A stretch of DNA of 64,000 nucleotides from a virus. The notes under the pieces are model-generated. The model did not search any database and was not told where the DNA came from. It worked only from the letters and a program-made list of their open reading frames with translations. Positions 3,855 to 64,000 of the stretch are shown here, piece by piece (position 1 is the stretch's first letter; each line of letters opens with the position of its first letter). The DNA is taken from positions 140,258 through 204,257 of the IMG/VR virus record IMGVR_UViG_3300044821_000131; one strand, 5' to 3'. A program made the position numbers and the translations under genes.

Positions 3855-6648
3855 TACACCGAACCCATACGGAAGTTATTTCAACTTTAACTCCGCCTAT
3901 GGTGGTGACCCCACGCCCTCACTATGGCGCAATCCCAATTATCCCAACATGGGTGCCCCCGTATCGCAAGGTGTAGCCTCGGCCATGGGAAGCCCTTCCG
4001 GCGGTATAAACCCGACCGAGACAGAGTTCCTCAATACCCGGCGCCGGGACATTGCCTTCCAATCCTTCATTGACCGCGCCATCAAGGAAGACCCCCGTAC
4101 CCGTACAATGGGCAATATGCTGCTGGACAGCATTTACGGTAATGACACCAGAGCGAAGACCTTGGCCATGGCGCGCGTAGGTGGCGCTGATGCCTATCAA
4201 GGCATCATTGGCACCGTGATGAACACGCCGGGTCTGAGCGGTTATTTCGGCGGGTCGGCCCGATCGTTGGCTGTTGGTTCGCTTGCAATTGGCACCAGCG
4301 GTCTGACCATGAATGGTTACGGTGTGTTTGGTGACAAGTCCATGAACCTGCGTTTTGCTGATGAGATGATGCGTCAAGTGAACAGTCGGTTTTACGCGCC
4401 CAATGGCAATCCGATACTCTCGATGACGAATGGTCTCAACCGTGATCAGATGGGTGGTGTAATGGTGCAGGCGGCGTCGCAAGGAGCCTTCACCGGTCTG
4501 GACATGGGTATGTTTCAAAAGTTGGATGCCGCCGGACGCACGTCTAAATTTATTGCCAATGGCAGCACCGTTCAGAAGATCACTGAATTCATGAAGGACA
4601 CGACCAAGGCTCTTGGTAGCCTGATCGACGTCTATGGCAACATCAGTTCGGGCGAGCTCTTACAAAAGGCTCAACAGATCACTGGTCTGGACCTGAGTCG
4701 ATTGGGAAATGCTAAGCTGATGTCGGAACGCCTGCAACGTTTGCGTGATATATCTGGATCCACTGGGATCGACGTGCAGTCGGCTTTCGATTTTTCGGCG
4801 CGGGCTGTGGATTACGGAACGGCTATCGGACTGCGACCGGAAATGGCTGGCTCCATCGGCGGATACGCCACTCGTCAGGGTTGGATGAATTATCGGGCGC
4901 GGCAGCTTAATACCAGTGGGTTCTATACGAACACGGTCAGCCCGATGGAGATGATTCAATCCAGTGTGCGGGATCAGACGGCTATGAGCCAAGATCCTCT
5001 CGGAGCCAGGTTCTACGCTTTGCAGATGGCCATAACGAACAGCGGCATGGACGCGACCAGTGCTGCTAATCTGCGTAATCGTGCTTCAGGCTTCAGTGCG
5101 AATGCGGCCGGAGTAAGTGCTTTCGATCAGATGTTCCAATCAAACTTCGGTATGTCAGCGCCTGGTCTAATTCGCGCTATGGGTGGAACTGCTGGTTTGC
5201 AACAACAATTGAGCCCAAGAGACCAAGAACTGGCAGCTGAAGCTGGGAATCGTAACCTAATGGCCCGACAAGGTCGGCTGATTGGTTACAATTTGTCTCG
5301 TGGGGGCATTATGCCGATGGGCAGCACTCGTGCTCAGATTGCTGCGATGCATGGATTGGTGACCACCTTTGACGACCAAACGATCTCGAAATTACTCGAC
5401 AGTGGTAGTTCTGCTGGCGACATCGCTGGCATCGTAGGTAAGATACTGGGACCGAATGCCTCTGGGGCTCTGAGCGACATCAACACAATTCGCGGTATGG
5501 GTGCTGGTGGGGTATTGGCCTATCACAACACGCGTTCGGCCATTCAGGCGAACGAGCTTACGAAAGGATTTCGATCTCAGGAAAGCTGGATCAAGAATGC
5601 CTACATGAACATGACGCAGATATCCACGGAGGCACGGGGGCAATTGCTTGGGGGTGGGTTCATGGCTGGCATGATGGACAAATATTCCGGCAATGATCCG
5701 ATGGGTCAATTGATGTGGCTGCAGAAGAATCGTCCTGATGTTGTGGCCGGGCTTGGCCGAGGTCAGTCGATCAGCATGGATTTTGCCAGTTTCATGAACG
5801 CAGACGGTTCGCTTAACATGGGAGCCTGGCAAAACGCCGCTAAGCAGTGGAGATCAGGTTTAGAACGCACACCGGAAGGCGCGGCGATTTCTCGTCGGTT
5901 CAAGCTTAACGGAATTGGCGGGCCAAACAATGCCAGTATACTGACCGATTTTTACAACACCGTCCGGGATCCCGGTAAACTGCAAGACTTGATGTCCGGA
6001 TTTAACATGTACGGGCTTGATAGTGGAAAAGGTGTAGCCTTCGCACGCTCTTCGGATTTGGCCCAGAAGGGTTTATATGGAGATACTGCCTCTGACATGT
6101 TGGCAGTGGCCAACGACCTGAGTCGCGCGGGTGGTTCCGAAACAGAGGTGGCTAATTTCAGAATGTACGCTGCGGCATTACAATCCGGAGGATTGATGTT
6201 CAGAGTTGGTAAGAACGGGGTTATGTCACGATCAGCTTTCGGTCGCGCGAGCGCTGACGCTATGGCCACCATGAGCAAGCAGTTCGAGACTTCCGTGATG
6301 AGTCATGTGTTGTCGGGCGGAAGCATTAGCAATACAACGCTGGTACAAATAGCCAAGCACGGTTACGCTGGTCACATGTTATCTGAGTGGCAGGATAAAG
6401 AAGACATGTTGAAATCGTTGATTAATATTGATCCCAAGAAGCATTGGTGGAATTCTGATCCGAGACAGGATCAGATCAACAGTCTGGAGAAGGCGAAGAA
6501 TTTGCTGAAGGCTGCTGGCGTGCAATCAGATTCCAAATTGGACAATGCAACTGGTGGTGGCAGAATTACCGGTAATTTAACAATTGAAGGAAGAAACGAC
6601 TTGGTGATGAAACTAAACGCGATCTTGGACGCGCCAACAACTCAATAA
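3841..6648 (+). CDS. Putative tail tape measure protein
   Basis: A 935-residue protein, rich in Gly, Ala, Met, Asn and Ser, with long helical stretches, no enzymatic motif and no signal peptide. Length, composition and position right after two chaperone-like genes suggest the tape measure, which sets tail length and is ejected with the DNA. By the usual rule of about 0.15 nm per residue it would predict a tail near 140 nm. Residues 1-60 are Pro/Asn-rich and probably extended; residues ~140-450 carry alternating helices and Gly-rich turns. No convincing transmembrane pair is seen, unlike many tape measures, so an internal virion protein is the alternative. AAGGAAA precedes the start, one of the few possible ribosome sites in this block. 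Confidence 0.6.
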   Translation: MPAFNTPNPYGSYFNFNSAYGGDPTPSLWRNPNYPNMGAPVSQGVASAMGSPSGGINPTETEFLNTRRRDIAFQSFIDRAIKEDPRTRTMGNMLLDSIYGNDTRAKTLAMARVGGADAYQGIIGTVMNTPGLSGYFGGSARSLAVGSLAIGTSGLTMNGYGVFGDKSMNLRFADEMMRQVNSRFYAPNGNPILSMTNGLNRDQMGGVMVQAASQGAFTGLDMGMFQKLDAAGRTSKFIANGSTVQKITEFMKDTTKALGSLIDVYGNISSGELLQKAQQITGLDLSRLGNAKLMSERLQRLRDISGSTGIDVQSAFDFSARAVDYGTAIGLRPEMAGSIGGYATRQGWMNYRARQLNTSGFYTNTVSPMEMIQSSVRDQTAMSQDPLGARFYALQMAITNSGMDATSAANLRNRASGFSANAAGVSAFDQMFQSNFGMSAPGLIRAMGGTAGLQQQLSPRDQELAAEAGNRNLMARQGRLIGYNLSRGGIMPMGSTRAQIAAMHGLVTTFDDQTISKLLDSGSSAGDIAGIVGKILGPNASGALSDINTIRGMGAGGVLAYHNTRSAIQANELTKGFRSQESWIKNAYMNMTQISTEARGQLLGGGFMAGMMDKYSGNDPMGQLMWLQKNRPDVVAGLGRGQSISMDFASFMNADGSLNMGAWQNAAKQWRSGLERTPEGAAISRRFKLNGIGGPNNASILTDFYNTVRDPGKLQDLMSGFNMYGLDSGKGVAFARSSDLAQKGLYGDTASDMLAVANDLSRAGGSETEVANFRMYAAALQSGGLMFRVGKNGVMSRSAFGRASADAMATMSKQFETSVMSHVLSGGSISNTTLVQIAKHGYAGHMLSEWQDKEDMLKSLINIDPKKHWWNSDPRQDQINSLEKAKNLLKAAGVQSDSKLDNATGGGRITGNLTIEGRNDLVMKLNAILDAPTTQ

Positions 6649-22129: not shown

Positions 22130-25100
22130 TGCCGCACATCTATCCATCTTCAGAATGGTTTGCAGACCAGTTGCAGTTGCAGACAACCGCTTCCGGCGTT
22201 AAACGTGTTTTAGATGTACAGGATGGAGAGCCTGGCCCGACTGGACCAACCGGTCCTACTGGTCCTGCTGGCGGCCCGACAGGTCCAACTGGTGCCGATT
22301 CTACAGTGCCAGGTCCCACGGGACCGACTGGTCCAACTGGATCTACCGGTCCCACTGGACCGACAGGACCTACAGGACCAACTGGTGCAGCATCTACCGT
22401 TGCTGGGCCAACTGGACCTACAGGGGCGCATGGGACAATTAAATTTTATGTTACACTTGACCCGGCGTATACTTCAACCGGTCATGCTGGAACAAGCATA
22501 GATCAATTTTCGTATGAGGATTTTATAGCATCGGCAAACGCTACTGAAAATAATACTTATTTGCTTGCCGGAGAGCGGACCTTAACTGATGCAGATGCTC
22601 AGTTCGTTATTAATCCATTTTCTCATATAATTACTGCACAGTATCCTTCGACTCCGTGGAGATTAAATTTAACGATATCAACATACAATCCCATAACGGA
22701 TAGTCCTCTTGAACAGGGGATTATTTTTGCTCCTACTGTGTTGGTGGGGGTTTTTGCTTTAACTGAAATGTATTTGAGCGCCTTTATTTGTATATTGTGC
22801 GACAACATTGACAAGTCAGTAATAATATCCCCGAACATAAATTTTCAGCCGGGATCACTGTCTTCGTTTTTTCAGTTAGCTGTAACTAATTCAATTATTT
22901 CCAGTTCTACCGGCTCTCCGCCTAATGCCTCTTATGGAGGTATAACGGCTTCAAATAGTATATTTACTGCGGCCTTTGCTGCTATGTCCGGTCTGATTGA
23001 TGGCGGGCAAAATACATTCAGTTGGAATGACTCTTCGGTAACTTATCCCCTTTGGAATGATGGAATTTTAGCTCATTATAATTTATACAGACGCTACGGG
23101 GTTGGGTATGTTGGAAGTTGGGCCTGCATAATAGATTCTGGTGGCGTTGGTCCAACTGGACCTACCGGCCCTACGGGACCGACTGGCGCTTCAGGAGCAG
23201 CTTCAACAGTCGCTGGTCCGACTGGACCTACGGGTCCTACAGGCGCTTCAGGAGCAGCAAGTACGGTTGCTGGCCCTACCGGTCCAACAGGTCCTACAGG
23301 CGCATCTGGAGCGGCTAGTACCGTGGCCGGACCGACTGGTCCCACCGGACCTACAGGAGCAAGTGGTGCTGCCTCTACTGTTGCTGGACCAACCGGCCCT
23401 ACGGGACCAACAGGGGCCAGTGGTGCTACTGGCCCGGGATACAAAGCGACATCGACGTCGTCTCTGGCTGTCGCTACCGGATCTAAGACATTTGTTTCGC
23501 AAACTGGGTTAGCGTATTCGGCTGGAGACCGGATGCGCGCTACAAGTAGTGGTACGCCTGCCAGTTATATGGAGGGATTGATCTCGTCATATATTACCGG
23601 TAGTTTTGTGACGACGGTTGACACGATTGGGGCGACGGGTACGTTTGCAGATTGGAATATAAATTTATCGGGCAATGTAGGATTGACCGGACCAACCGGC
23701 CCAACTGGTCCCACCGGCGTATCCGGCGCAGCGAGTACTGTAGCGGGACCTACGGGTCCGACTGGGCCGACAGGAGCTACAGGAGCAGCCTCGACTGTAG
23801 CAGGCCCTACCGGGCCGACAGGCCCAACAGGTGCGTCAGGAGCAGCGAGTACTGTGGCGGGTCCGACAGGCCCAACTGGGCCCACAGGTGCGTCAGGAGC
23901 AGCCTCGACTGTAGCAGGCCCAACTGGACCTACGGGTCCGACAGGGGCCAGTGGTGTTGCTTCCACAGTGGCTGGCCCTACCGGGCCGACAGGCCCAACA
24001 GGGGCGAGTGGGGCTGCCTCTACGGTCGCGGGTCCGACAGGTCCGACTGGACCGACAGGAGCAAGTGGAGCCGCGTCAACAGTGGCTGGACCAACTGGTC
24101 CTACCGGACCTACCGGTGCGGGTTATAAAGCCACGTCAACATCGTCACTCGCGGTCGCGACCGGATCCAAGACGTTTGCCTCGCAGACTAACCTTGCATA
24201 TTCGGCCGGCGATCGGATGCGTGCTACAAGCAGCGGCACACCCACCAGCTATATGGAAGGGGTGATCTCATCGTATGGTTCGGGAAATTTTGTGACGACG
24301 GTTGACACGATTGGAGCGACCGGTACGTTTGCAGATTGGAATATAAATCTGGCTGGTAACGTCGGTTTTACTGGACCAACAGGCCCAACTGGACCAACAG
24401 GGGCCAGTGGCGCCGCCTCGACTGTAGCAGGTCCGACTGGACCTACGGGTCCGACAGGCGCATCCGGTGCAGCAAGCACTGTAGCAGGCCCTACCGGTCC
24501 GACAGGCCCAACGGGCGCTTCAGGAGCAGCTTCAACAGTCGCTGGTCCGACTGGACCTACGGGTCCTACAGGCGCTTCAGGAGCAGCAAGTACGGTTGCT
24601 GGCCCTACCGGTCCAACAGGTCCTACAGGGGCCAGTGGTGCTGCAAGTACCGTGGCTGGTCCAACTGGACCTACGGGTCCGACCGGGGCTAGCGGAGCAA
24701 CCGGGCCGGGTTATAAAGCCACATCAACTTCGTCGTTAGCAGTCGCAACCGGGTCCAAGACATTTGCTTCGCAGACGAACCTTGCATATTCAGCTGGAGA
24801 TCGGATGCGTGCTACAAGTAGCGGCACACCCGCCAGCTATATGGAAGGGGTGATCTCGTCATACATTACAGGCAGTTTTGTAACGACGGTAGACACGATT
24901 GGGGCTACAGGCACGTTTGCAGATTGGAATATAAATTTAGCGGGCAATGTAGGATTAACCGGACCTACAGGTCCGACTGGACCGACTGGTCCCACCGGCG
25001 TATCCGGCGCAGCGAGTACTGTAGCGGGACCTACGGGTCCGACTGGGCCGACAGGAGCTACAGGAGCAGCCTCGACTGTAGCAGGCCCTACCGGGCCGAC

Positions 25101-25578
25101 AGGCCCAACCGGGGCGAGTGGGGCTGCTTCCACCGTGGCTGGACCAACTGGACCTACAGGTCCGACAGGCGCGTCAGGAGCAGCGAGTACTGTAGCGGGT
25201 CCGACAGGTCCGACAGGCCCAACGGGCGCTTCTGGTGCTGCAAGTACGGTTGCCGGACCAACCGGCCCTACGGGACCAACAGGTGCTTCTGGTGCTGCTT
25301 CAACAGTTGCTGGCCCTACCGGTCCGACAGGCCCAACGGGCGCTTCTGGTGCTGCAAGTACCGTGGCTGGCCCTACCGGGCCGACAGGTGCGTCAGGAGC
25401 AGCGAGTACTGTGGCGGGTCCGACAGGCCCAACTGGGCCGACAGGTGCGTCAGGAGCAGCAAGTACTGTTGCTGGACCAACTGGTCCTACCGGACCTACC
25501 GGTGCAACAGGGCCGACCGGCCCCGGCGGCGGCGCATCTTCAAACTCAATGGCATATCCTTGGTTTTTAGACTTATGA
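22129..25578 (+). CDS. Collagen-like tail fibre protein 1
   Basis: An 1149-residue fibre. Residues ~35-100 are G-P-T triplets; ~105-335 form a non-repetitive domain ([18 protein letters not shown] onward) that may be a globular knob or trimeriser; the remainder alternates collagen blocks with three ~83-residue modules starting [19 protein letters not shown] and ending in GNVG. The collagen blocks are built from a 19-residue unit ([10 protein letters not shown] then three G-P-T), used about 26 times, in which a four-residue STVA insert regularly breaks the G-x-y register. Trimeric collagen helices like this make long, stiff host-binding fibres. The last residues (AYPWFLDL) may be a terminal tip. 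Stop overlaps the next fibre's ATG. Confidence 0.82.
23437..23685 (+). repeat. 83-residue fibre module, copy 1
   Basis: First of three 249-base copies (others at 24121 and 24709). Encodes [15 protein letters not shown] then a small beta domain containing [16 protein letters not shown] and [11 protein letters not shown]. Copies differ mainly at synonymous sites. Confidence 0.85.
24121..24369 (+). repeat. 83-residue fibre module, copy 2
   Basis: Second copy of the 249-base module. At protein level it differs from copy 3 mostly around SSYGSGNFV versus SSYITGSFV. Confidence 0.85.
24709..24957 (+). repeat. 83-residue fibre module, copy 3
   Basis: Third copy of the 249-base module, closest to copy 2 over its first half and to copy 1 over its SSYITGSFV segment, which suggests past gene conversion between copies. 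Confidence 0.85.
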
Positions 25579-28500
25579 CAATCATACTCGACACAACCTC
25601 AAAATACATAGACGTGGTAATGACCGCACCGCCGGCCACGACCAACCCGTCGTTCTTCTCCAGCTACGCCGACAACAACGGCACGACTTTTACGGAAGGA
25701 GGCAACGATGGTGTGCTCAATGGAACTACGCTGGTAACACTGGTTGCCGCACCGGCATCGAGCACGCGCCGGACGGTAAAGAAGCTTGGAATTTATAATG
25801 CTGATACCGCGCCCGTCACAATTACAGTTGCAATAAATGACTCAGCCACTCGTCGTATTTTTGCCAAGGTTACGCTGCAACAAAATGAAACGTGGTTGGG
25901 TGATGTGCAGATGGACGCGAATGGAAACGTGAAGGGGATTGGACCTACTGGCCCTACTGGACCAACTGGTCCAACTGGACCAACTGGTCCTACAGGAGGC
26001 ACGGGTGCAGTTTCAACGGTCGCGGGTCCGACTGGTCCTACTGGTCCGACAGGTCCCACTGGTGCTGCTAGTACCGTGGCGGGACCTACTGGTCCAACTG
26101 GACCTACAGGTCCCACTGGTGCTGCTTCTACTGTTGCGGGTCCGACTGGTCCTACTGGTCCGACAGGCCCAACTGGAGCAGCAAGTACCGTAGCAGGTCC
26201 GACTGGTCCAACCGGACCTACTGGTGCAGCTAGTACCGTAGCCGGCCCAACTGGTCCGACGGGAGCCACTGGACCTACCGGGCCGACTGGATCAGCCGCA
26301 GTCGTAACTGTACAGGTCATTGCCACAGCGGGAAGTACGACCACGCTAACATCTGGAAGTCCTTATCAAACAGATTTTACGGGGACGCTTAATCAGACTT
26401 GTGTTTTACCGAATGCTACGACTTTATCAGTGGGGCAGCGTTACCAAGTAAACAACAATTCTACTGGACTGATTACAGTACAGGTAAATGGTGGAACATT
26501 CTTGGCAACCATAGCTACTGGAATGTCATGGCTAGTTACATTGTTGACCAATGGTACTACTGCTGGTACGTGGGATTTTGATTGGATAGGTAACGTCCAA
26601 GGACGCGGGACTCAAAGTATAGCCACTTCCGGTGGGAGCACACAATTGACAGCGACGAGTCATAGACAGCTTATCTTAACGGGTACGGCTACGCATACCA
26701 TAATACTTCCCGATTGTACTACGCTACCTTTCACGGATTGGTCTTTTGAAATAGACAATCAATCTCCGCTAACCATTGCTGTGCAGTATTTTGGAGGGGC
26801 GGCACTAACGCTTATTACGGGCTACGGGCAGTTAATTTTAAGCTGTAACTCTATCGCCACACAAGCAGGCACTTGGCAATATCAGACGGACCAGCAGATT
26901 TCGGCGGATATTCCGCCAACGCCACAGGTTCTCAACGGACTGGATGTTTGGGGGCATAGTTGGCTGGAGAATCCTTTAACGTCACCAACATTTTCAAGCT
27001 TGGGCACGAATAGTAACGAATTGTTTGGGCGCATATTTGCAACATCGTGTGGTATCCCAGCATCAAGATATATTCAGCACGCCCGTACAGGAGCCATGCT
27101 GGTGGGTGGAACTCGGGCCGCGACAACTGGCGGCGGTAATTTTGCAAAGATGTTGAACGAACTTGTACGTTCAAGGCAAACTCCGCCGTACGTTCGATCA
27201 GGAAATGCGCATCTTATTTGTTGGGGCATTAACGACATTGGGAATAACACGGCGGCGAATCAGGCCAATCTCAGAGTTAGCGCGCAGAACATCTTAACGG
27301 TGCTAATTTCCAAGGCACGTTCGGCAGCGATCTATAACGCCAACCCGACGGGAGCAAACCTTGCATTCGGTGCCAACTGGGTGGCCGCAACTGGTGCCAA
27401 CGATTTTACGTCGGGCTTCGCCCGTCAATGCACGGTGGTAGATTCCGCCGGATCGTCTACTATCACGTTTACAATCCCCATCGGCTATCAAGGCGAACCG
27501 ATTTGTTTCTGCTTGGGCACGCTTTCAGGCGGATCAATCGTGGTTACTTGGGGCGGTGGTGCTGGTATTACTGGCACCACAACCTTGAGCGGTATTGGTT
27601 TGGCAGCAAACGGCGTCATTCTCAAGAGGATCACAACTCTGACCAAGGCGAACGCCGGTCAAACCATAACCTGCGCGGTGACGACCATATCCGCTTCGAC
27701 GGCCTATTTTGACGGGGTATGGATTGAGGCGTTCAAGGCTGTGCCTATCTTAGTGTGTAACTGTCCTCGCCTGCCGGAGCATTTAATTACTTGGGCGAGC
27801 GGAGCAGGCGTCACTACGGGTGTCAACACCAGTTTTACCGACGCTAACGTGCAATTCTCAAACACGGGCGGTTGGTATGACGTAGGAGCCACCCTAAACG
27901 AAACCGATGCGCAAGGCGCGTTTACTGGAGCGACAAATACCATCTCATCCGTCACCAATGCAACCACGGTTGTACTGGGTACGAATGCGGCGGCGGCAAA
28001 AACAAATATCCAATACACAATCCAACGTCGAATTCGAGGTTACTCCTCAAGTCTATATTGGACAACGAATACCAATTTCACCAGCGCGACGAATCTTAGC
28101 CATGCGGCGGCGGATACGGACATCACGAATTGGAACTCGATGATAGCAACTGTCGTGGCTCAGTTCGACTCAATGGTTCAAGTTGTTGATCTGGATGCGG
28201 CTATTGGAGCAGACGCCACCGTGCCTTCAAACGTTTACACATGGTTCTCCATGGATGGAGGTCATCTCAACGCACTTGGGCACATGCGCTGCGCTCAAGC
28301 GGTTATGCTGGCTGCGATTAACTTGATTGCGCCAACAACCGATCCGCAACCATTCGCGAACCTTCAAGAGCAGTCTGTTCCGGTTTATGAGCCGGCAGAG
28401 TACCGGCGCGTGATTCGTACGGGCCAGATTTACCTGCCTGATGGAGCAATCCTTGGTCCGGTGGCAAATTTATACACAGCCGTTCTGGGAGATTGTTTTG

Positions 28501-38111: not shown

Positions 38112-38121
38112 AGCCGCGGCT
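38112..38121. repeat. Short palindrome between convergent genes
   Basis: AGCCGCGGCT, a 10-base perfect palindrome at the end of the terminase gene, within a larger TAGCC...GGCTA pairing. Could help terminate transcripts from either side, but no T tract follows. Confidence 0.3.
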
Positions 38122-39955
38122 ATCCTGAATACGCTCCCGGGAGATTGTAGTTGAAGTTTCCTCGTAACATCGACTCCAGCCGTAGCTTCATGCTGAGATC
38201 ACTGAACATCGGCTCGCCAATCATAATCTTGCCAAGCATGTAAGCGTAGTTGAGGGCCTGCAGCGTGTCGTTCGGACGACTGGCACTAGCGCGATAAATA
38301 AACGTGTTAGTGCCAGCGTTCCCCGCCTTCTCACCCGGCGCGCGATACATGTTGAGACAGTCCGTCAAATACTCCTCAGCGTACTCCCAAGAGAAACAGC
38401 GTATACGCTTCTGGCGTATAGCATCGAAGGTGAAAGACAATGATTCTGTTTTGTTGAGCGACCATTGATTATAGATGTGCGGTCCTTTTGGTTCAGATAT
38501 GAGGGCTGTAGCGGGACCGACGTAGTTAAAGATAAGATGTTTCTCCGGCTGAATAAATTCTCGCAATTTGCTATTGTAGACTGCGCCAACACCGAAATCT
38601 GAGGCCAAGGCAAATCCCATGTGCTGCTTCCATTCCCGTATGATGGTACCAATGATGTCGTCGTAGTTCATACCGGTAAAGCGACTCATATGCAGAATGT
38701 CAAAGAGTCCGTTTGAAGTGATACCAAGTACGACATGTACGGTCGTACTGATCTTAGTGTGAGACATAGGTTGGTAGTCACTGCCACCCCAGTCACAACC
38801 AGACACGATGTATTGATATTTTTTTGCTTGGGCGTTACGCTTGAGCAGCCCAACGTCCTTACCGAGCGTGCAGATGTCTTGTAGTTGTTGCCGAGTTATT
38901 TCACGCTCACCTTCTTCGGTTGGGACACCAAGAATTTCCTGCAGGAACTTTCGATAATCGCCTTTGTTCTTCCGCTCATAGATCTTGGACCAGCGATAAG
39001 GATTCTGGATAACGGACGGTACGATCAACTGAGGAATGTGAAAGCCATACTTCTTGGCTTCAAACGCCTGCATGTTGGAATGAAGAAATCTACCAGCGCG
39101 AACGTTCAGGAGCTTTCCACATTTGGCACAGCAAGGTCCCTCCGGTTGAATCATGTCCATCACGCCATGTTCCGGGAGTGGAATGTTCTCGTGACCGGAC
39201 GGGCAGGTCATGACCCATACGCCACCTGAAGACTCTCCGTACTTCTTCTCAAGAAACGTGTCGGTGGTGAGCGAGGTGCCGGCGTAAAAAGTGATCGGGT
39301 ATTCCGAGGCCGATTGTACCTGCTCGACTTCGATTTCCAGATCGGGATCGAAGTCCTGACTTTCATCGAATAAGATTTCATCGGAACTTTTGCCGCGTAC
39401 ATTAGACGCACTACTGAGCACGTAGGCGAGTTCGATCTTCGATCCGTTCGCAAATTCTTTCAAGTGAAGATTCTGTCGGAGTTTGTAGTCCGGCTTGTAG
39501 TCCAGCTGCGCGCGCACCATTTCTTGTAAACGGTTGGCATAGGTCTCAAGCTGTTGACTGCGAGGACTGATGTACAGACTGGAGAATCCTGGGAACAGGC
39601 GTGTCAATAGGAGTTGACGCGCGGCGAAACTTGTGGATTTACTGATCTGTCGAGACCCCCGCAACACGGTGAACCCGCCGAGATGAATATTAAAGATTTG
39701 AAACGAAAAACCGTAATCACTAAACAGGAGCGGACGGTCTTTCGGGTAGCGCGGCCAGTAAAAACCGGTTAAGAACACCATGTTGAAATTGCAGAATTTC
39801 AAGAAATCCATCAAGGCGTCATTGAACTCCCGGGCGCCGGCAGCACTTATTTTTGATCGTTCGTAGAGGCCGGACAGTTCATTGCTGCGCGTGACGAGCT
39901 GGTGCCGAAACTCACCATCAGTGCGAAGTTTATAATCGAGGTCGAGATAAGGCAT
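38120..39955 (-). CDS. terL: Terminase large subunit
   Basis: A 611-residue packaging motor on the minus strand. ATPase domain: adenine-binding region near residues 85-100, Walker A at 100-108 (GSRQISKST), Walker B at 192-198 (DEILFDE). The Walker A has Ser where Gly is normal before the Lys; T4 gp17 has SRQLGKT. A zinc-ribbon-like insert follows (C251, H255, C275/C276, C279). The RNase H-like nuclease begins at D388 (VSGCDWGGSDY) with a second acidic site near ASDFGVGAVYN. The enzyme translocates DNA into the prohead and cuts it. No small terminase was identified nearby. It is one of only two minus-strand genes, starting 49 bases from a divergent gene. Confidence 0.9.
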   Translation of the reverse strand: MPYLDLDYKLRTDGEFRHQLVTRSNELSGLYERSKISAAGAREFNDALMDFLKFCNFNMVFLTGFYWPRYPKDRPLLFSDYGFSFQIFNIHLGGFTVLRGSRQISKSTSFAARQLLLTRLFPGFSSLYISPRSQQLETYANRLQEMVRAQLDYKPDYKLRQNLHLKEFANGSKIELAYVLSSASNVRGKSSDEILFDESQDFDPDLEIEVEQVQSASEYPITFYAGTSLTTDTFLEKKYGESSGGVWVMTCPSGHENIPLPEHGVMDMIQPEGPCCAKCGKLLNVRAGRFLHSNMQAFEAKKYGFHIPQLIVPSVIQNPYRWSKIYERKNKGDYRKFLQEILGVPTEEGEREITRQQLQDICTLGKDVGLLKRNAQAKKYQYIVSGCDWGGSDYQPMSHTKISTTVHVVLGITSNGLFDILHMSRFTGMNYDDIIGTIIREWKQHMGFALASDFGVGAVYNSKLREFIQPEKHLIFNYVGPATALISEPKGPHIYNQWSLNKTESLSFTFDAIRQKRIRCFSWEYAEEYLTDCLNMYRAPGEKAGNAGTNTFIYRASASRPNDTLQALNYAYMLGKIMIGEPMFSDLSMKLRLESMLRGNFNYNLPGAYSG

Positions 39956-59393: not shown

Positions 59394-59403
59394 AATAAAA
59401 TAA

Positions 59404-59435
59404 TTGACACAAAACAGCATCAGGATTAGTGTCAA
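59404..59435 (+). promoter_or_regulatory. Palindromic promoter/operator candidate
   Basis: TTGACAC (59404-59410) and GTGTCAA (59429-59435) are perfect inverted repeats. TTGACA can act as -35 with TAGTGT (59427-59432) as -10 after 17 bases, so the palindrome arms overlap both elements, as an autoregulated operator would. Confidence 0.4.
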
Positions 59436-59486
59436 AACTGTCCGGCGAAAATGTGGAGTAAACAGAAGCAGATCCAATCACGATTT

Positions 59487-59583
59487 TGGTCATCGTGCGA
59501 CGCTGCCTTGCCTCTGTCTTGCCACCTTTCGCCGGGGGATGATCTAGGATCCGCAGCCAACACGATGACCATTTTATTTTTGT
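59487..59583 (+). promoter_or_regulatory. Structured leader with T-rich tract, before the DnaB-like gene
   Basis: TGGTCATCGTG (59487-59497) pairs perfectly with CACGATGACCA (59561-59571); GCTGC (59502-59506) with GCAGC (59553-59557) continues the stem inside. The 3' arm is followed at once by TTTTATTTTTGT and then the ATG at 59584. The order long stem, T tract, start codon looks like a terminator or attenuator that also hides the ribosome-loading region. Confidence 0.45.
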
Positions 59584-61104
59584 ATGGGTAGTATTACACA
59601 AGACTTTAGACGGGCACCGTTGCCTCCAGATGCGTCCGAAGTACGAAAAGACCACACCGGTATAGAGCGGGAAATCTTCTTCGGCGCCGTAGCCTCCTAC
59701 AATTTTTACAAACTTGTCCGCAATAACGTTTGCCCATACGACGCAGAAAAAAGGACATGCCGACCCGATTTTAGCATCGAGCGCTATAACATCGCGTGGG
59801 CCTTCATTGTCGCGTACTGGCAACGTTTTGAGAATATAACACTTCAGCGCGATCTAAGCATTCCCACCGAGACGCTGTGTGCCTTCGTTATTGATTGTGC
59901 CAACCGTTCCGGCTTGGTCGTGGACGTAGCCAAACAGATCACCGACGAAATCGTCGAAGAAGTCGGCTACACGGCAAATCTTACCTACGAGTCCCTGAAA
60001 GCTCTGGCCGAGAGCTCCGCGTTCAACGAGTGGCTGGAGTCCAGGCTATTGTCGCAGGTTACGGGCACCATTGCGGCGCAGAAGAACTTGGGCTATCTGA
60101 CCATGGACACGTTGGAGGAAGCCGTGGCGAAGGCCCGGAGGGCCATTACACCGGTAAAGAATGACTATTTCGTCAACGGAGCCAACTTCCTCTTCGGTAA
60201 ACGGAAAATACGTCCCAGCGTTCCCATAACGGCATTCCCAAATCTGTCCCGCGCGCTGGGCGGCGGCCTGTTCTGGGGAGAAGCCACAATGGTAGCCGGA
60301 ATCAATGCCGGAGGAAAAACGATAGTTACCATGCAGCTTGCTCGAGACTTTGCCTATCAAAGTATTAATACTGTGGTATTTACTACAGAGCGTAAACCGG
60401 AGGAATTGTTTGTTCGTTCTGTGAGTGAGTTATTGAATGTGGATATAGGCCGTCTCATGACGGTTCCGGCAACGGTGAATCAGGAAGTGGAGATAAATTA
60501 CATTCCAGATTGGGTGTGGTCCCACCCGGGAGATGCTGCGCGCTTGGAGCGAATGTACGATGTCTACAGTCAGCATTTACTGTTCATTGATTGGAGTAAG
60601 GGTCAAGGCGCTACCATAAGCGAGAGTTTTGAACAGGTTATGCAGCAGATAGAACAAACCGGATGGATGCCACAAATAGTGATATTCGACTGGATAGGTG
60701 GAGGATTAGACGTTATCGAGAATAAGGACTGGCTTCGGATGTATTACCAGTCGGCCGCAGACTGCCTGATCAATCATAGCAAACGCACGAACCGACATGT
60801 GATCATGACGGCACAATTGAACAAGGAGAAGGTCAAGCCTAGTACTAACTTTGTGGATATGAGCATGTTATCGGAATGTTTGACGATGACTAACAACTTG
60901 ACCAATTTTATTGGTATTACGGCTAAGCGGGATCAGAATCTGAAACCGGGGGCTGCGACGGTGCAGAAGTTTCAGAATCTGTGTGCGGCCAAAGCGACGC
61001 ACGGGCCAGGTGGCATCATACCGGTGGAGGCACAGTTCAATGTACAAAGGTTTATGGAACGTAACGATGCGGCTGAGAAGATGTTGAAGACTGGGGGTGG
61101 TTAA
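59584..61104 (+). CDS. DnaB-like replicative helicase
   Basis: A 506-residue RecA-fold helicase. Residues ~1-170 form a helical N-terminal domain; the core begins near 200 with Walker A at 239-246 (GINAGGKT), then TVVFTTERKPEELFVRSVSE (the DnaB H1a-like region), a Walker B-like IVIFDWIGGG (~368-377) and HVIMTAQLNKEKVKP, the sensor segment. DnaB-type enzymes unwind the fork as hexamers. A double Gly before the P-loop Lys is normal. It is transcribed from its own leader (59394-59583) and followed by a 415-base non-coding region and a winged-helix gene. No primase motif fused to it. Confidence 0.88.
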   Translation: MGSITQDFRRAPLPPDASEVRKDHTGIEREIFFGAVASYNFYKLVRNNVCPYDAEKRTCRPDFSIERYNIAWAFIVAYWQRFENITLQRDLSIPTETLCAFVIDCANRSGLVVDVAKQITDEIVEEVGYTANLTYESLKALAESSAFNEWLESRLLSQVTGTIAAQKNLGYLTMDTLEEAVAKARRAITPVKNDYFVNGANFLFGKRKIRPSVPITAFPNLSRALGGGLFWGEATMVAGINAGGKTIVTMQLARDFAYQSINTVVFTTERKPEELFVRSVSELLNVDIGRLMTVPATVNQEVEINYIPDWVWSHPGDAARLERMYDVYSQHLLFIDWSKGQGATISESFEQVMQQIEQTGWMPQIVIFDWIGGGLDVIENKDWLRMYYQSAADCLINHSKRTNRHVIMTAQLNKEKVKPSTNFVDMSMLSECLTMTNNLTNFIGITAKRDQNLKPGAATVQKFQNLCAAKATHGPGGIIPVEAQFNVQRFMERNDAAEKMLKTGGG

Positions 61105-61141: not shown

Positions 61142-61350
61142 GTCGAACGTTAGTTTGAGGACCAAAGGCGCGTCAAAATATTCGGTTATGTCAGACCGAA
61201 CTGGCGAGCACCAACAGTGTCAACGAGTCGCAAACCGGATTCGTGAACAAAATGATGACTAGCGCCATTCTGTCGCGTCAGTGTGAATATGTCGCTAGTG
61301 CGACAATTTGTCAACAGGAATTTAATACGAACGATTTTTCGAAAAATAAT

Positions 61351-61380
61351 TTGACAATGAAAATGAAGATGTCATAGTGA
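61351..61380 (+). promoter_or_regulatory. Promoter candidate upstream of the winged-helix gene
   Basis: TTGACA at 61351-61356 and, after 18 bases, TAGTGA at 61375-61380. TGACA/TGTCA (61352-61356, 61370-61374) again forms an inverted repeat across the promoter, as at 59404. A 14-base AT palindrome lies just upstream. A transcript would start near 61387, at the beginning of the interleaved repeats. Confidence 0.4.
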
Positions 61381-61384
61381 TCTC

Positions 61385-61475
61385 GCTTTAGTAAAGTGAC
61401 AACATGAATTTTGTGCCGCCCTGTTGCGTGTAACACTTCTATGTTGTTGCGTTACTAAAGCCCGCAACAGGCGGC
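61385..61475 (+). ncRNA. Bistable RNA-switch candidate in the leader
   Basis: Stem A: GCTTTAGTAA (61385-61394) with TTACTAAAGC (61452-61461), extended by ACAACAT (61399-61405) with ATGTTGT (61441-61447). Stem B: GCCGCCCTGTTGCG (61415-61428, one bulged C) with CGCAACAGGCGGC (61463-61475). Order A5, B5, A3, B3 makes the two mutually exclusive or pseudoknotted. The winged-helix gene starts 45 bases downstream. No match to a known riboswitch was recognised. Confidence 0.45.
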
Positions 61476-61519
61476 GCCCTTCTTCAATAAGGTCCACGCC
61501 GTCTTAATTTAATACAATT

Positions 61520-63025
61520 ATGATCGCCGCAATTCAAGACTTCGAGTCGACGCCCGCAACATGTCGCCAGCCAGACAAGGCTCTGCAACTGCCCCAATAT
61601 ATCATGCACGCGACCTTGCAGAGATGCTGTGACCTCCAAGGCCAAGCCACGACACAGGCATTGCACATCAGCTGCCATATCCAAGCATTCAGTAACATTG
61701 CCATACACGAGGTGGCGAAGTATGCCTGGGACCGGCGGCGCGCGGTGCGGGGGCATGGCCAACAGATGAAGCCGCGTCCGGATCGTAAGTACAGATTCAA
61801 ATTGTCCGGGGACGAAATGGCGGTCTATCGCTTCCTGATCAACGTCCATAAGCCGGACAGCCGGAACCACCTCAAGTTTCACAAGCGCTTCAATGTGTAT
61901 GGAAGTTTGGACATGACGTCGGAAGAAATTGCCCGGTATATAAAACTGGAAGTGTATTCTGTTCGCCGGGCCTTGGTGAAACTGGACGCCCTTTGGCTGC
62001 TGGATCGTGTCTTAATTGCGCTAAAGGCGGAGGATGGCCACTATGTGGGCAGCAAGACATTGCTGCATCTGAGGCTGGATCGCCACCTGCAAATGTTTCA
62101 TGAAATTAAGAAGAACCGGGGGGTAGTTACCCCCGAAGAGGATGAGCAAAATCAGGCAGCAAATATGCCGGTTTTTGATGCATCTGGAGATGATAATAAT
62201 GTCAGTTGTAATAATGATATTATGGACCCCTCCTCTTCTCGTTTGGATTCAATCGTCAAGAGTTCTGGGTCCGAAGAGGAAAAAGACAGCGCGGCGCCGC
62301 TGTGCGGCGACCCAAATCTTTTTCCAGAGGGAGTTTTGAAAATAGGGGATGCGACGTTCCAGAAGTTTACAAAGGCCATTGATGACGCATTTCCCGGGCA
62401 ACTCGAAACCCCGGAACAATTGAATCGACTTCGTTACTTGATCCTTCGGACTTCACCTAAAGACCGCATGCAATACGAGGATCTCTGTGCAGTGTTGGAA
62501 TACAACATGGCCAGTTCGGTGAAGAATCTTTTGGATTACTGGTGGGTCATTCTGCACGATCTTCGGGTTGAACAGCTTTCCGCCAAGGACGGTTACGACG
62601 CGGATCGTTATCTTAAAAATTGGAGCGCTGAGGCGTCGGAAGTTAATTTCATCGAGTCGATGAAGGACGCGGTGCAGTTTATCGCCTATCGTAGAATCTT
62701 GGAACCCGGATTAAAAACATACGACGCCGTTTTGGACAGTTACGGAAATCCATTTGGTGCCTTGGCCGCTTGTCTCGAATTGGGTTTGCACAAGAAAATC
62801 GATTACGCTTTTACTGACGAACGGCGTTTTAACCTGCTTATGGACTGGATCAAGGATCCCAGTCATGACTTCGAGTCGCTCATGTTTCGTCAGCATTATC
62901 CTTGGATAATGGAGCGTTTGGGTTTGCCGGAGGCGGATTGGAACACCAAGAAACGGCGGGTACGCAAGGCTTATGAACGGATGCTGAATCTTCGGGCACA
63001 TGCGTCGATATGGCCAAAAAATTAA
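61520..63025 (+). CDS. Winged-helix protein, candidate replication initiator
   Basis: A 501-residue protein. Residues ~85-190 contain a basic DNA-binding region (RPDRKYRFKLSGDEMAVYRF, then MTSEEIARYIKLEVYSVRRA and LVKLDALWLLDRVLIAL), an HTH with the layout of winged helices in replication initiators and regulators. Residues ~205-270 are acidic and likely disordered; the C-terminal ~230 residues are helical with no named motif. It is preceded by a palindrome-rich non-coding region and a DnaB-like helicase gene, so a role as origin-binding helicase-loader or initiator is plausible. A transcriptional regulator is the main alternative. The leader has no Shine-Dalgarno. Confidence 0.55.
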   Translation: MIAAIQDFESTPATCRQPDKALQLPQYIMHATLQRCCDLQGQATTQALHISCHIQAFSNIAIHEVAKYAWDRRRAVRGHGQQMKPRPDRKYRFKLSGDEMAVYRFLINVHKPDSRNHLKFHKRFNVYGSLDMTSEEIARYIKLEVYSVRRALVKLDALWLLDRVLIALKAEDGHYVGSKTLLHLRLDRHLQMFHEIKKNRGVVTPEEDEQNQAANMPVFDASGDDNNVSCNNDIMDPSSSRLDSIVKSSGSEEEKDSAAPLCGDPNLFPEGVLKIGDATFQKFTKAIDDAFPGQLETPEQLNRLRYLILRTSPKDRMQYEDLCAVLEYNMASSVKNLLDYWWVILHDLRVEQLSAKDGYDADRYLKNWSAEASEVNFIESMKDAVQFIAYRRILEPGLKTYDAVLDSYGNPFGALAACLELGLHKKIDYAFTDERRFNLLMDWIKDPSHDFESLMFRQHYPWIMERLGLPEADWNTKKRRVRKAYERMLNLRAHASIWPKN

Positions 63026-63649: not shown

Positions 63650-64000
63650 ATGAACCTATATCTAAAAGATTCAGACGGTAATTGGAAATTACACAGCTAC
63701 GAAACGTTATCCGATTTGGCCGGGGAGTTTGCCAAACGTAACATAAAAATCGGCAATCGCGTGGCGATCGGCAGTGACGTGACGATCGGCAATTTCGTGA
63801 AGATCGGCGATTACGTGACGATCGGCAATCGCGTGACGATCGGCAATTTCGTGAAGATCGGCGATTACGTGACGATCGGCGATTACGTGACGATCGGCAA
63901 TCGCGTGGCGATCGGCAATCGCGTGACGATCGGCAATGGCGTGACGATCGACAATTACGTGACGATCGGCGATGACGTGACGATCGGCAATCGCGTGACG
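63650..64000 (+). CDS. Hexapeptide-repeat (left-handed beta-helix) protein, partial
   Basis: Open to the window edge; 117 codons present. The first ~33 residues (MNLYLKDSDGNWKLHSYETL and following) are a small lead domain. From 63749 the sequence is pure hexapeptide repeats, I-G-(N/D/S)-x-V-(T/A/K), 14 units in a row, the LbetaH fold used by acyltransferases, ice-nucleating or structural proteins. The missing 3' end decides whether a catalytic loop or His follows. The leader is A/T-rich (TTAGATTT) without Shine-Dalgarno. Confidence 0.75.
   Translation, partial: MNLYLKDSDGNWKLHSYETLSDLAGEFAKRNIKIGNRVAIGSDVTIGNFVKIGDYVTIGNRVTIGNFVKIGDYVTIGDYVTIGNRVAIGNRVTIGNGVTIDNYVTIGDDVTIGNRVT
63749..64000 (+). 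repeat. 18-base tandem repeat encoding hexapeptides
   Basis: Exactly 14 units of 18 bases, close to ATCGGCAATCGCGTGACG, with changes at codons 2-4 and 6. Near-perfect DNA repetition suggests recent expansion, or tight constraint. The array continues past the window end. Confidence 0.9.

Follow-up and report, generated by a model that had tools for sequence, protein, structure and literature searches.

The gap ahead of a 501-aa gene in a large virus genome holds two long inverted repeats whose arms interlock in the order A5-B5-A3-B3, which raises the question of whether they form a functional element and, if so, whether it would act as competing RNA folds, as a pseudoknot or as DNA. The stretch analysed (the window) is the final 64 kb of a 204,257-base virus record, and positions given below refer to the window unless the record is named. 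A first-pass annotation had described the repeats as a candidate bistable RNA switch in front of a winged-helix gene. All of its stem coordinates were correct when rechecked on the sequence, as were the arm order and the single base separating A3 from B3. It did not include a second instance of the crossing-stem layout, which lies 1.9 kb upstream before a helicase gene, nor a third stem (C) and a promoter-like block common to both sites. The upstream site is referred to here as leader 1 and the site ahead of the 501-aa gene as leader 2 (Table 1). The element is probably real, and the mechanism proposed for it below is a prediction.

Table 1. Positions of the two leaders, their stems and the genes that follow them.
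Feature	Position	Strand	Details
Promoter-like block, leader 1	59397..59432	+	AAAATAATTGACA-N17-TAGTGT; putative, sequence-based
Leader 1 stem A, 5' arm	59442..59471	+	CCGGCGAAA core 59442-59450, then GTGG, ACAGA, GCAG segments
Leader 1 decoy CACGAT	59479..59484	+	Pairs with 59492-59497 (3' half of B5) once A has formed; local fold
Leader 1 stem B, 5' arm	59487..59506	+	TGGTCATCGTG 59487-59497, then GCTGC 59502-59506
Leader 1 stem A, 3' arm	59508..59535	+	TTTCGCCGG core 59527-59535
Leader 1 stem B, 3' arm	59553..59571	+	GCAGC 59553-59557, CACGATGACCA 59561-59571
DnaB-like replicative helicase gene	59584..61104	+	Downstream of leader 1; PF03796 E=2.5e-6; phrog_19 E=1.6e-13
Promoter-like block, leader 2	61343..61380	+	AAAATAATTTGACA-N18-TAGTGA; TTGACA 61351-61356, TAGTGA 61375-61380; putative promoter
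Leader 2 stem A, 5' arm	61385..61406	+	Pairs with 61440-61461: 18 Watson-Crick, 3 G.U, 1 mismatch
Leader 2 stem B, 5' arm	61413..61428	+	Within apical loop of A; bulged C 61419; partner 61463-61477
Leader 2 stem A, 3' arm	61440..61461	+	Contains second TGTTGCG copy, 61445-61451
Leader 2 stem B, 3' arm	61463..61477	+	One base past A3
Leader 2 stem C	61469..61504	+	61469-61476 with 61497-61504; in MFE structure; region alone -14.2 kcal/mol
501-aa gene	61520..63025	+	ORF after leader 2; by position, a probable replication initiator

Leader 2 occupies a 415-base gap between the helicase gene and the 501-aa gene. Its stem A was correctly described as 10 plus 7 pairs, a core of GCTTTAGTAA (61385-61394) with TTACTAAAGC (61452-61461) and a second segment of ACAACAT (61399-61405) with ATGTTGT (61441-61447). 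In RNA form the gap between these segments is nearly closed (G-C, U.G and G.U), with A61395.G61451 alone failing, and G61406.U61440 is an extra pair, which brings the stem to 21 of 22 positions paired. The 13 pairs and bulged C of stem B (61415-61428 with 61463-61475) were also right and are extended by U61414.G61476 and G61413-C61477 to 15 pairs, 14 of them Watson-Crick and one G.U. Stem C shares part of B3; it can therefore form alongside A but not alongside B. The TGTTGCG copy in A3 can itself pair with B3 to give a 7-bp decoy hairpin. The ATG lies 45 bases past B3, as first noted, and is preceded by the A/U-rich sequence TCTTAATTTAATACAATT. The RNA fold of the region has a z-score of -4.9, a value reached by none of 200 shuffles. 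The only small ORFs are the tiny MNFVPPCCV and MLLRY, and a consensus scan of the leader gave no clear intrinsic terminator. The upstream part of the same gap (61258-61348) contains more palindromes and alternative pairings (ACTAGCG/CGCTAGT, TGTCGCtagtGCGACA and ATTTTTCGAAAAAT), possibly operator or origin elements.

Leader 1 lies in a 190-base gap ahead of the helicase gene. Its stem A combines a perfect 9-bp core with further Watson-Crick segments and is crossed by a stem B of 11 plus 5 perfect pairs. B3 is followed by the A/U-rich TTTTATTTTTGT and, 12 bases past its end, by the helicase ATG. Stem B with the adjoining TTTTATTTTT is a terminator candidate, but its loop would be 63 nt. The fold of the whole leader is not unusual on the + strand (z -1.3; -3.3 on the - strand). 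A 46-aa ORF (59451-59591) spans the leader and its stop overlaps the helicase start (TATGGGTAG); it may encode a leader peptide or be a small coupled gene, and if it is translated, the stems lie inside a short coding region that runs past the beginning of the helicase gene. Each leader also carries a decoy copy of half a B arm, CACGAT in leader 1 and TGTTGCG in leader 2, and these decoys could ease strand exchange.

The crossing layout is rare in this genome. A scan of the window for interleaved perfect stems of at least 9 bp returned two pairs only, one in each leader; twelve random sequences matched to the window in length and dinucleotide composition had no such pair. An energy-based scan for crossing pairs was run over both strands of the whole record (408.5 kb) with strict mismatch costs; with cheap mismatches, the results were swamped by GC-rich and repeat-coding DNA. 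Leader 2 ranked first (-27.5) and leader 1 second (-27.0), the latter scoring -22.2 (rank 12) when read on the + strand. Intergenic gaps of at least 100 bases account for 4.7% of the record, and among them the two leaders alone exceed -18.1. None of 3000 dinucleotide shuffles of either gap reached the observed value, the best being -23.6 for leader 2 and -21.5 for leader 1, and both strands of three related phage records (about 300 kb) contained no crossing pair stronger than -22.5. The observation at leader 2 is confirmed and is stronger than first stated.

The TTGACA/TAGTGA pair reported just upstream of leader 2 is present, and its pattern is shared with leader 1. TTGACA-N15-20-TAGTG occurs at two sites only in the 204-kb record, one before each leader and both preceded by AAAATAAT. 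The common block is AAAATAAT(T)TGACA-N17/18-TAGTG; otherwise, the two leaders have just 8- and 9-base words in common. The two sites thus have the shape in common but not the stem sequences, an arrangement that speaks for folding rather than for protein sites recognised by sequence. From the usual sigma-70 geometry, transcripts would be expected to start at about 59439 in leader 1 and about 61387 (61386-61388) in leader 2, in each case at the foot of stem A. A third copy of AAAATAATTTGACA (record 98022, - strand) was rejected, since it falls within an opposite-strand gene and has no stems. The block was found in 33 contigs with no comparable stems downstream (best -12.9, versus -22.2 and -27.5 here), and so it is by itself no marker of the element.

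Both leaders serve consecutive replication genes. Among the phage genes in the window are those for a terminase, an NAD ligase, an SbcCD-like protein and a helicase. No direct family or database match was found for the 501-aa protein, whose structure prediction is of low confidence (pLDDT 38), and its naming as a winged-helix protein drew no support from these searches. Its position corresponds instead to that of the lambda-O-like initiators of two relatives. These are two IMG/VR contigs with terminases 47-50% identical to the one here, and both have the gene order recombination helicase, 191-199-aa protein, DnaB-like helicase, 320-344-aa protein, primase and DNA polymerase. The matches of the 320-344-aa protein are to phage replication-initiation families, lambda-O-like ones included (best E about 4e-9). 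In our record, the primase and DNA polymerase genes lie at the start, and both ends fall within the same kind of 18-base repeat gene. The order therefore agrees with that of the relatives on a circular map, which places the 501-aa protein in the initiator position; by this position, it is probably the replication initiator. At that place neither relative has a gap, and both are without the element.

Several other features of the genome were recorded. The repeat at the two ends (window 63700-64000 and record 1-100) is an 18-base unit coding for hexapeptide-like repeats (IGNRVTIGDYVT...), and similar repeats occur near 2.8, 39.6, 47.3, 51.6 and 79 kb of the record. The genome is probably circular or permuted, with the assembly broken inside the repeat. 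Two distinct genes match terminase large subunit families (record 4817-6556 and window 38120-39955; phrog_2666 and phrog_675). Dense tandem-repeat coding at window 22285-26250, with many GGTCC/CCGACAG words, resembles collagen-like (Gly-X-Y) tail fibre repeats. Short-repeat clusters with regular spacings of 10/17, 17 and 21/26/47 bases near 64.7, 69.5 and 76 kb of the record are candidate iterons or regulatory arrays. Shine-Dalgarno sequences are nearly absent before start codons, with a weak 4-mer at best in 3 of 45 sampled window genes, which suggests that the host or phage does not rely on them.

Searches for the element elsewhere were negative. No homologue was found in the phage collection, in IMG/VR or in one scan of genome contigs, and no close relative was recovered from the searched collections with the 501-aa protein, the helicase, the terminase, DNA similarity, the exact stem pattern or the promoter block; one match in the helicase search was a chance 14-residue match and was dismissed. 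Rfam covariance models gave no match at gathering score in the 64 kb and otherwise only chance-level ones (E about 0.7). Nor did phages or IMG/VR contain a related sequence that would indicate an aptamer conserved across genomes.

Nested fold predictions give mutually exclusive stems in both leaders. Calculated alone, stems A and B are nearly equal in energy, at -30.6 and -30.8 kcal/mol in leader 2 and -34.6 and -37.4 in leader 1. The first-pass description of two competing stems in leader position behind a promoter-like site is upheld. In leader 2, fold A makes up nearly all of the predicted ensemble, and B comes out some 5 kcal/mol less stable (-57.8 versus -63.0); 'bistable' is therefore a possible term there and fits leader 1 better. 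Growing transcripts were modelled solely by equilibrium folding of prefixes, and on that basis stem A of leader 1 has a probability of 0.96 until 59566 and stem B one of 0.91-0.98 from 59572. The change falls when B3 has just been made, with the U-rich run and the ATG coming next, and is what a kinetic switch would be expected to show. In leader 2, by the same calculation, A persists; in the MFE structure, the favoured fold also includes stem C. Accessibility of the start codons differs little between the folds.

On balance, we consider it likely that the two sites are paired cis-regulatory leader RNAs with competing folds that control the helicase and initiator genes. Transcription would begin at the promoter-like block that the leaders share. 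The 5' UTR would first fold as the long hairpin A, whose apical loop would present B5 to the complementary B3 made just downstream of A. The RNA would then adopt either fold A, accompanied in leader 2 by stem C near the start codon, or fold B, which would take A apart and, in leader 2, stem C as well. This choice would set the output of the DnaB-like helicase from leader 1 and of the replication initiator from leader 2. Control would probably be translational, at the A/U-rich start region lacking a Shine-Dalgarno sequence; since such sites are nearly absent from the genes of this phage, hiding one would be an unexpected route. The signal may be one of the replication proteins, in autogenous control of the kind that T4 gp32 exerts through its own leader, or it may be the speed at which transcription and translation proceed. 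A more specific version, which we put forward tentatively, is that the leaders are matched kinetic RNA switches, with a common block, hairpin shape and kind of decoy but unrelated stems, that would deliver helicase and initiator in a fixed order or ratio.

The same layout, a loop paired with downstream sequence in both leaders, would also suit a pseudoknot in which A and B coexist as a compact knot, either bound by a replication protein in the manner of T4 gene 32 or activating initiator translation in the manner of repZ of IncI/IncB plasmids. By estimated geometry, connecting loops of about 6-9 and 11-12 nt would be barely long enough to bridge the stems of leader 2; those of leader 1 are about 15 nt each. 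The knot would nevertheless be strained in leader 2, where the stems are 15-22 bp long and A3 and B3 are a single base apart, and every nested prediction yields one stem or the other; we regard this reading as rather unlikely. Much the same can be said of a DNA-level element, namely part of a replication origin or an initiator-bound operator whose repeats are protein sites or extruded hairpins. In leader 2 the wobble pattern points to the + strand (4 G.U versus 0 A.C), in leader 1 to the - strand; because the two contradict each other and single out neither RNA strand, they leave room for such an origin or operator. The site adjoins the probable initiator gene and a 72% AT stretch (61306-61384), there are further upstream palindromes such as ATTTTTCGAAAAAT, TGTTGCG occurs four times in 61422-61561, and TGT[CT]GC, with eight copies in 61271-61567, is nowhere else in the genome so densely clustered. 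However, about one in four random genomes reaches eight copies of some degenerate 6-mer, the count is inflated by the inverted repeats themselves, and leader 1 is without either motif. There is also no GC-skew turn at leader 2, and half-sites 34-64 bp apart would be unusual for a dimeric binder.

It is very improbable that the repeats are functionless scars, interleaved quasi-palindromes left in tolerant intergenic DNA by template switching during replication. Although no conservation is demonstrated and the relatives lack the gap altogether, such an origin would require four long inverted repeats to have arisen independently and in a matching arrangement downstream of the promoter-like block that the two neighbouring genes share, and the shuffles of each leader argue against it.

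Comparison with known systems gives partial parallels for the competing-fold leaders. The supposition that no phage element of this sort had been described holds in that literature searches returned no description of this one, but it was too strong as to kind: the translational operator of T4 gene 32, the SSB gene, is a pseudoknot leader of about 28 nt followed by UUAAA/UAAA repeats that mediates autogenous repression (PMC535899). Like it, the leaders here place a structured 5' element and then an A/U-rich stretch before the start codon of a phage DNA-replication gene; unlike it, their stems are 15-22 bp, compete, and precede a helicase and a probable initiator. The repZ/repA leaders of I-complex and IncB/L/M plasmids contain a stem-loop I whose loop forms a pseudoknot with downstream sequence. 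These plasmids also have an antisense RNAI hairpin (PMC10724649). Leader 2 is similar in being a leader hairpin of a (probable) initiator gene with a loop complementary to downstream sequence. It differs in that the complementarity is much longer, the layout also stands before a helicase gene, the replicon is a phage rather than a plasmid, and a consensus scan, whose consensus may not be that of the host, found no antisense (- strand) promoter near the 3' side of the element. Attenuators and kinetic riboswitch platforms set arms 1:2 and 3:4 against 2:3, as do A plus C against B in leader 2, and the predicted replacement of an early A by B in leader 1 is of the same kind; unlike them, leader 2 has no convincing terminator, and neither a recognised aptamer nor an Rfam match was found. 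The lambda origin lies in the O gene, with iterons at the initiator gene. A repeated short motif and an AT-rich stretch at an O-like initiator gene recall that arrangement; in contrast, the repeat cluster here is not significant after correction and is absent from leader 1. By analogy, both leaders may work like structured leaders of replication genes.

To our knowledge, most examples of phage replication genes regulated by a structured leader come from T4. The phage described here is large and divergent, and its group has no studied member. If the proposed reading is true, matched leaders before the helicase and initiator genes would amount to RNA-level control of the start of replication, and switches of this type could be found by layout alone, without sequence conservation.
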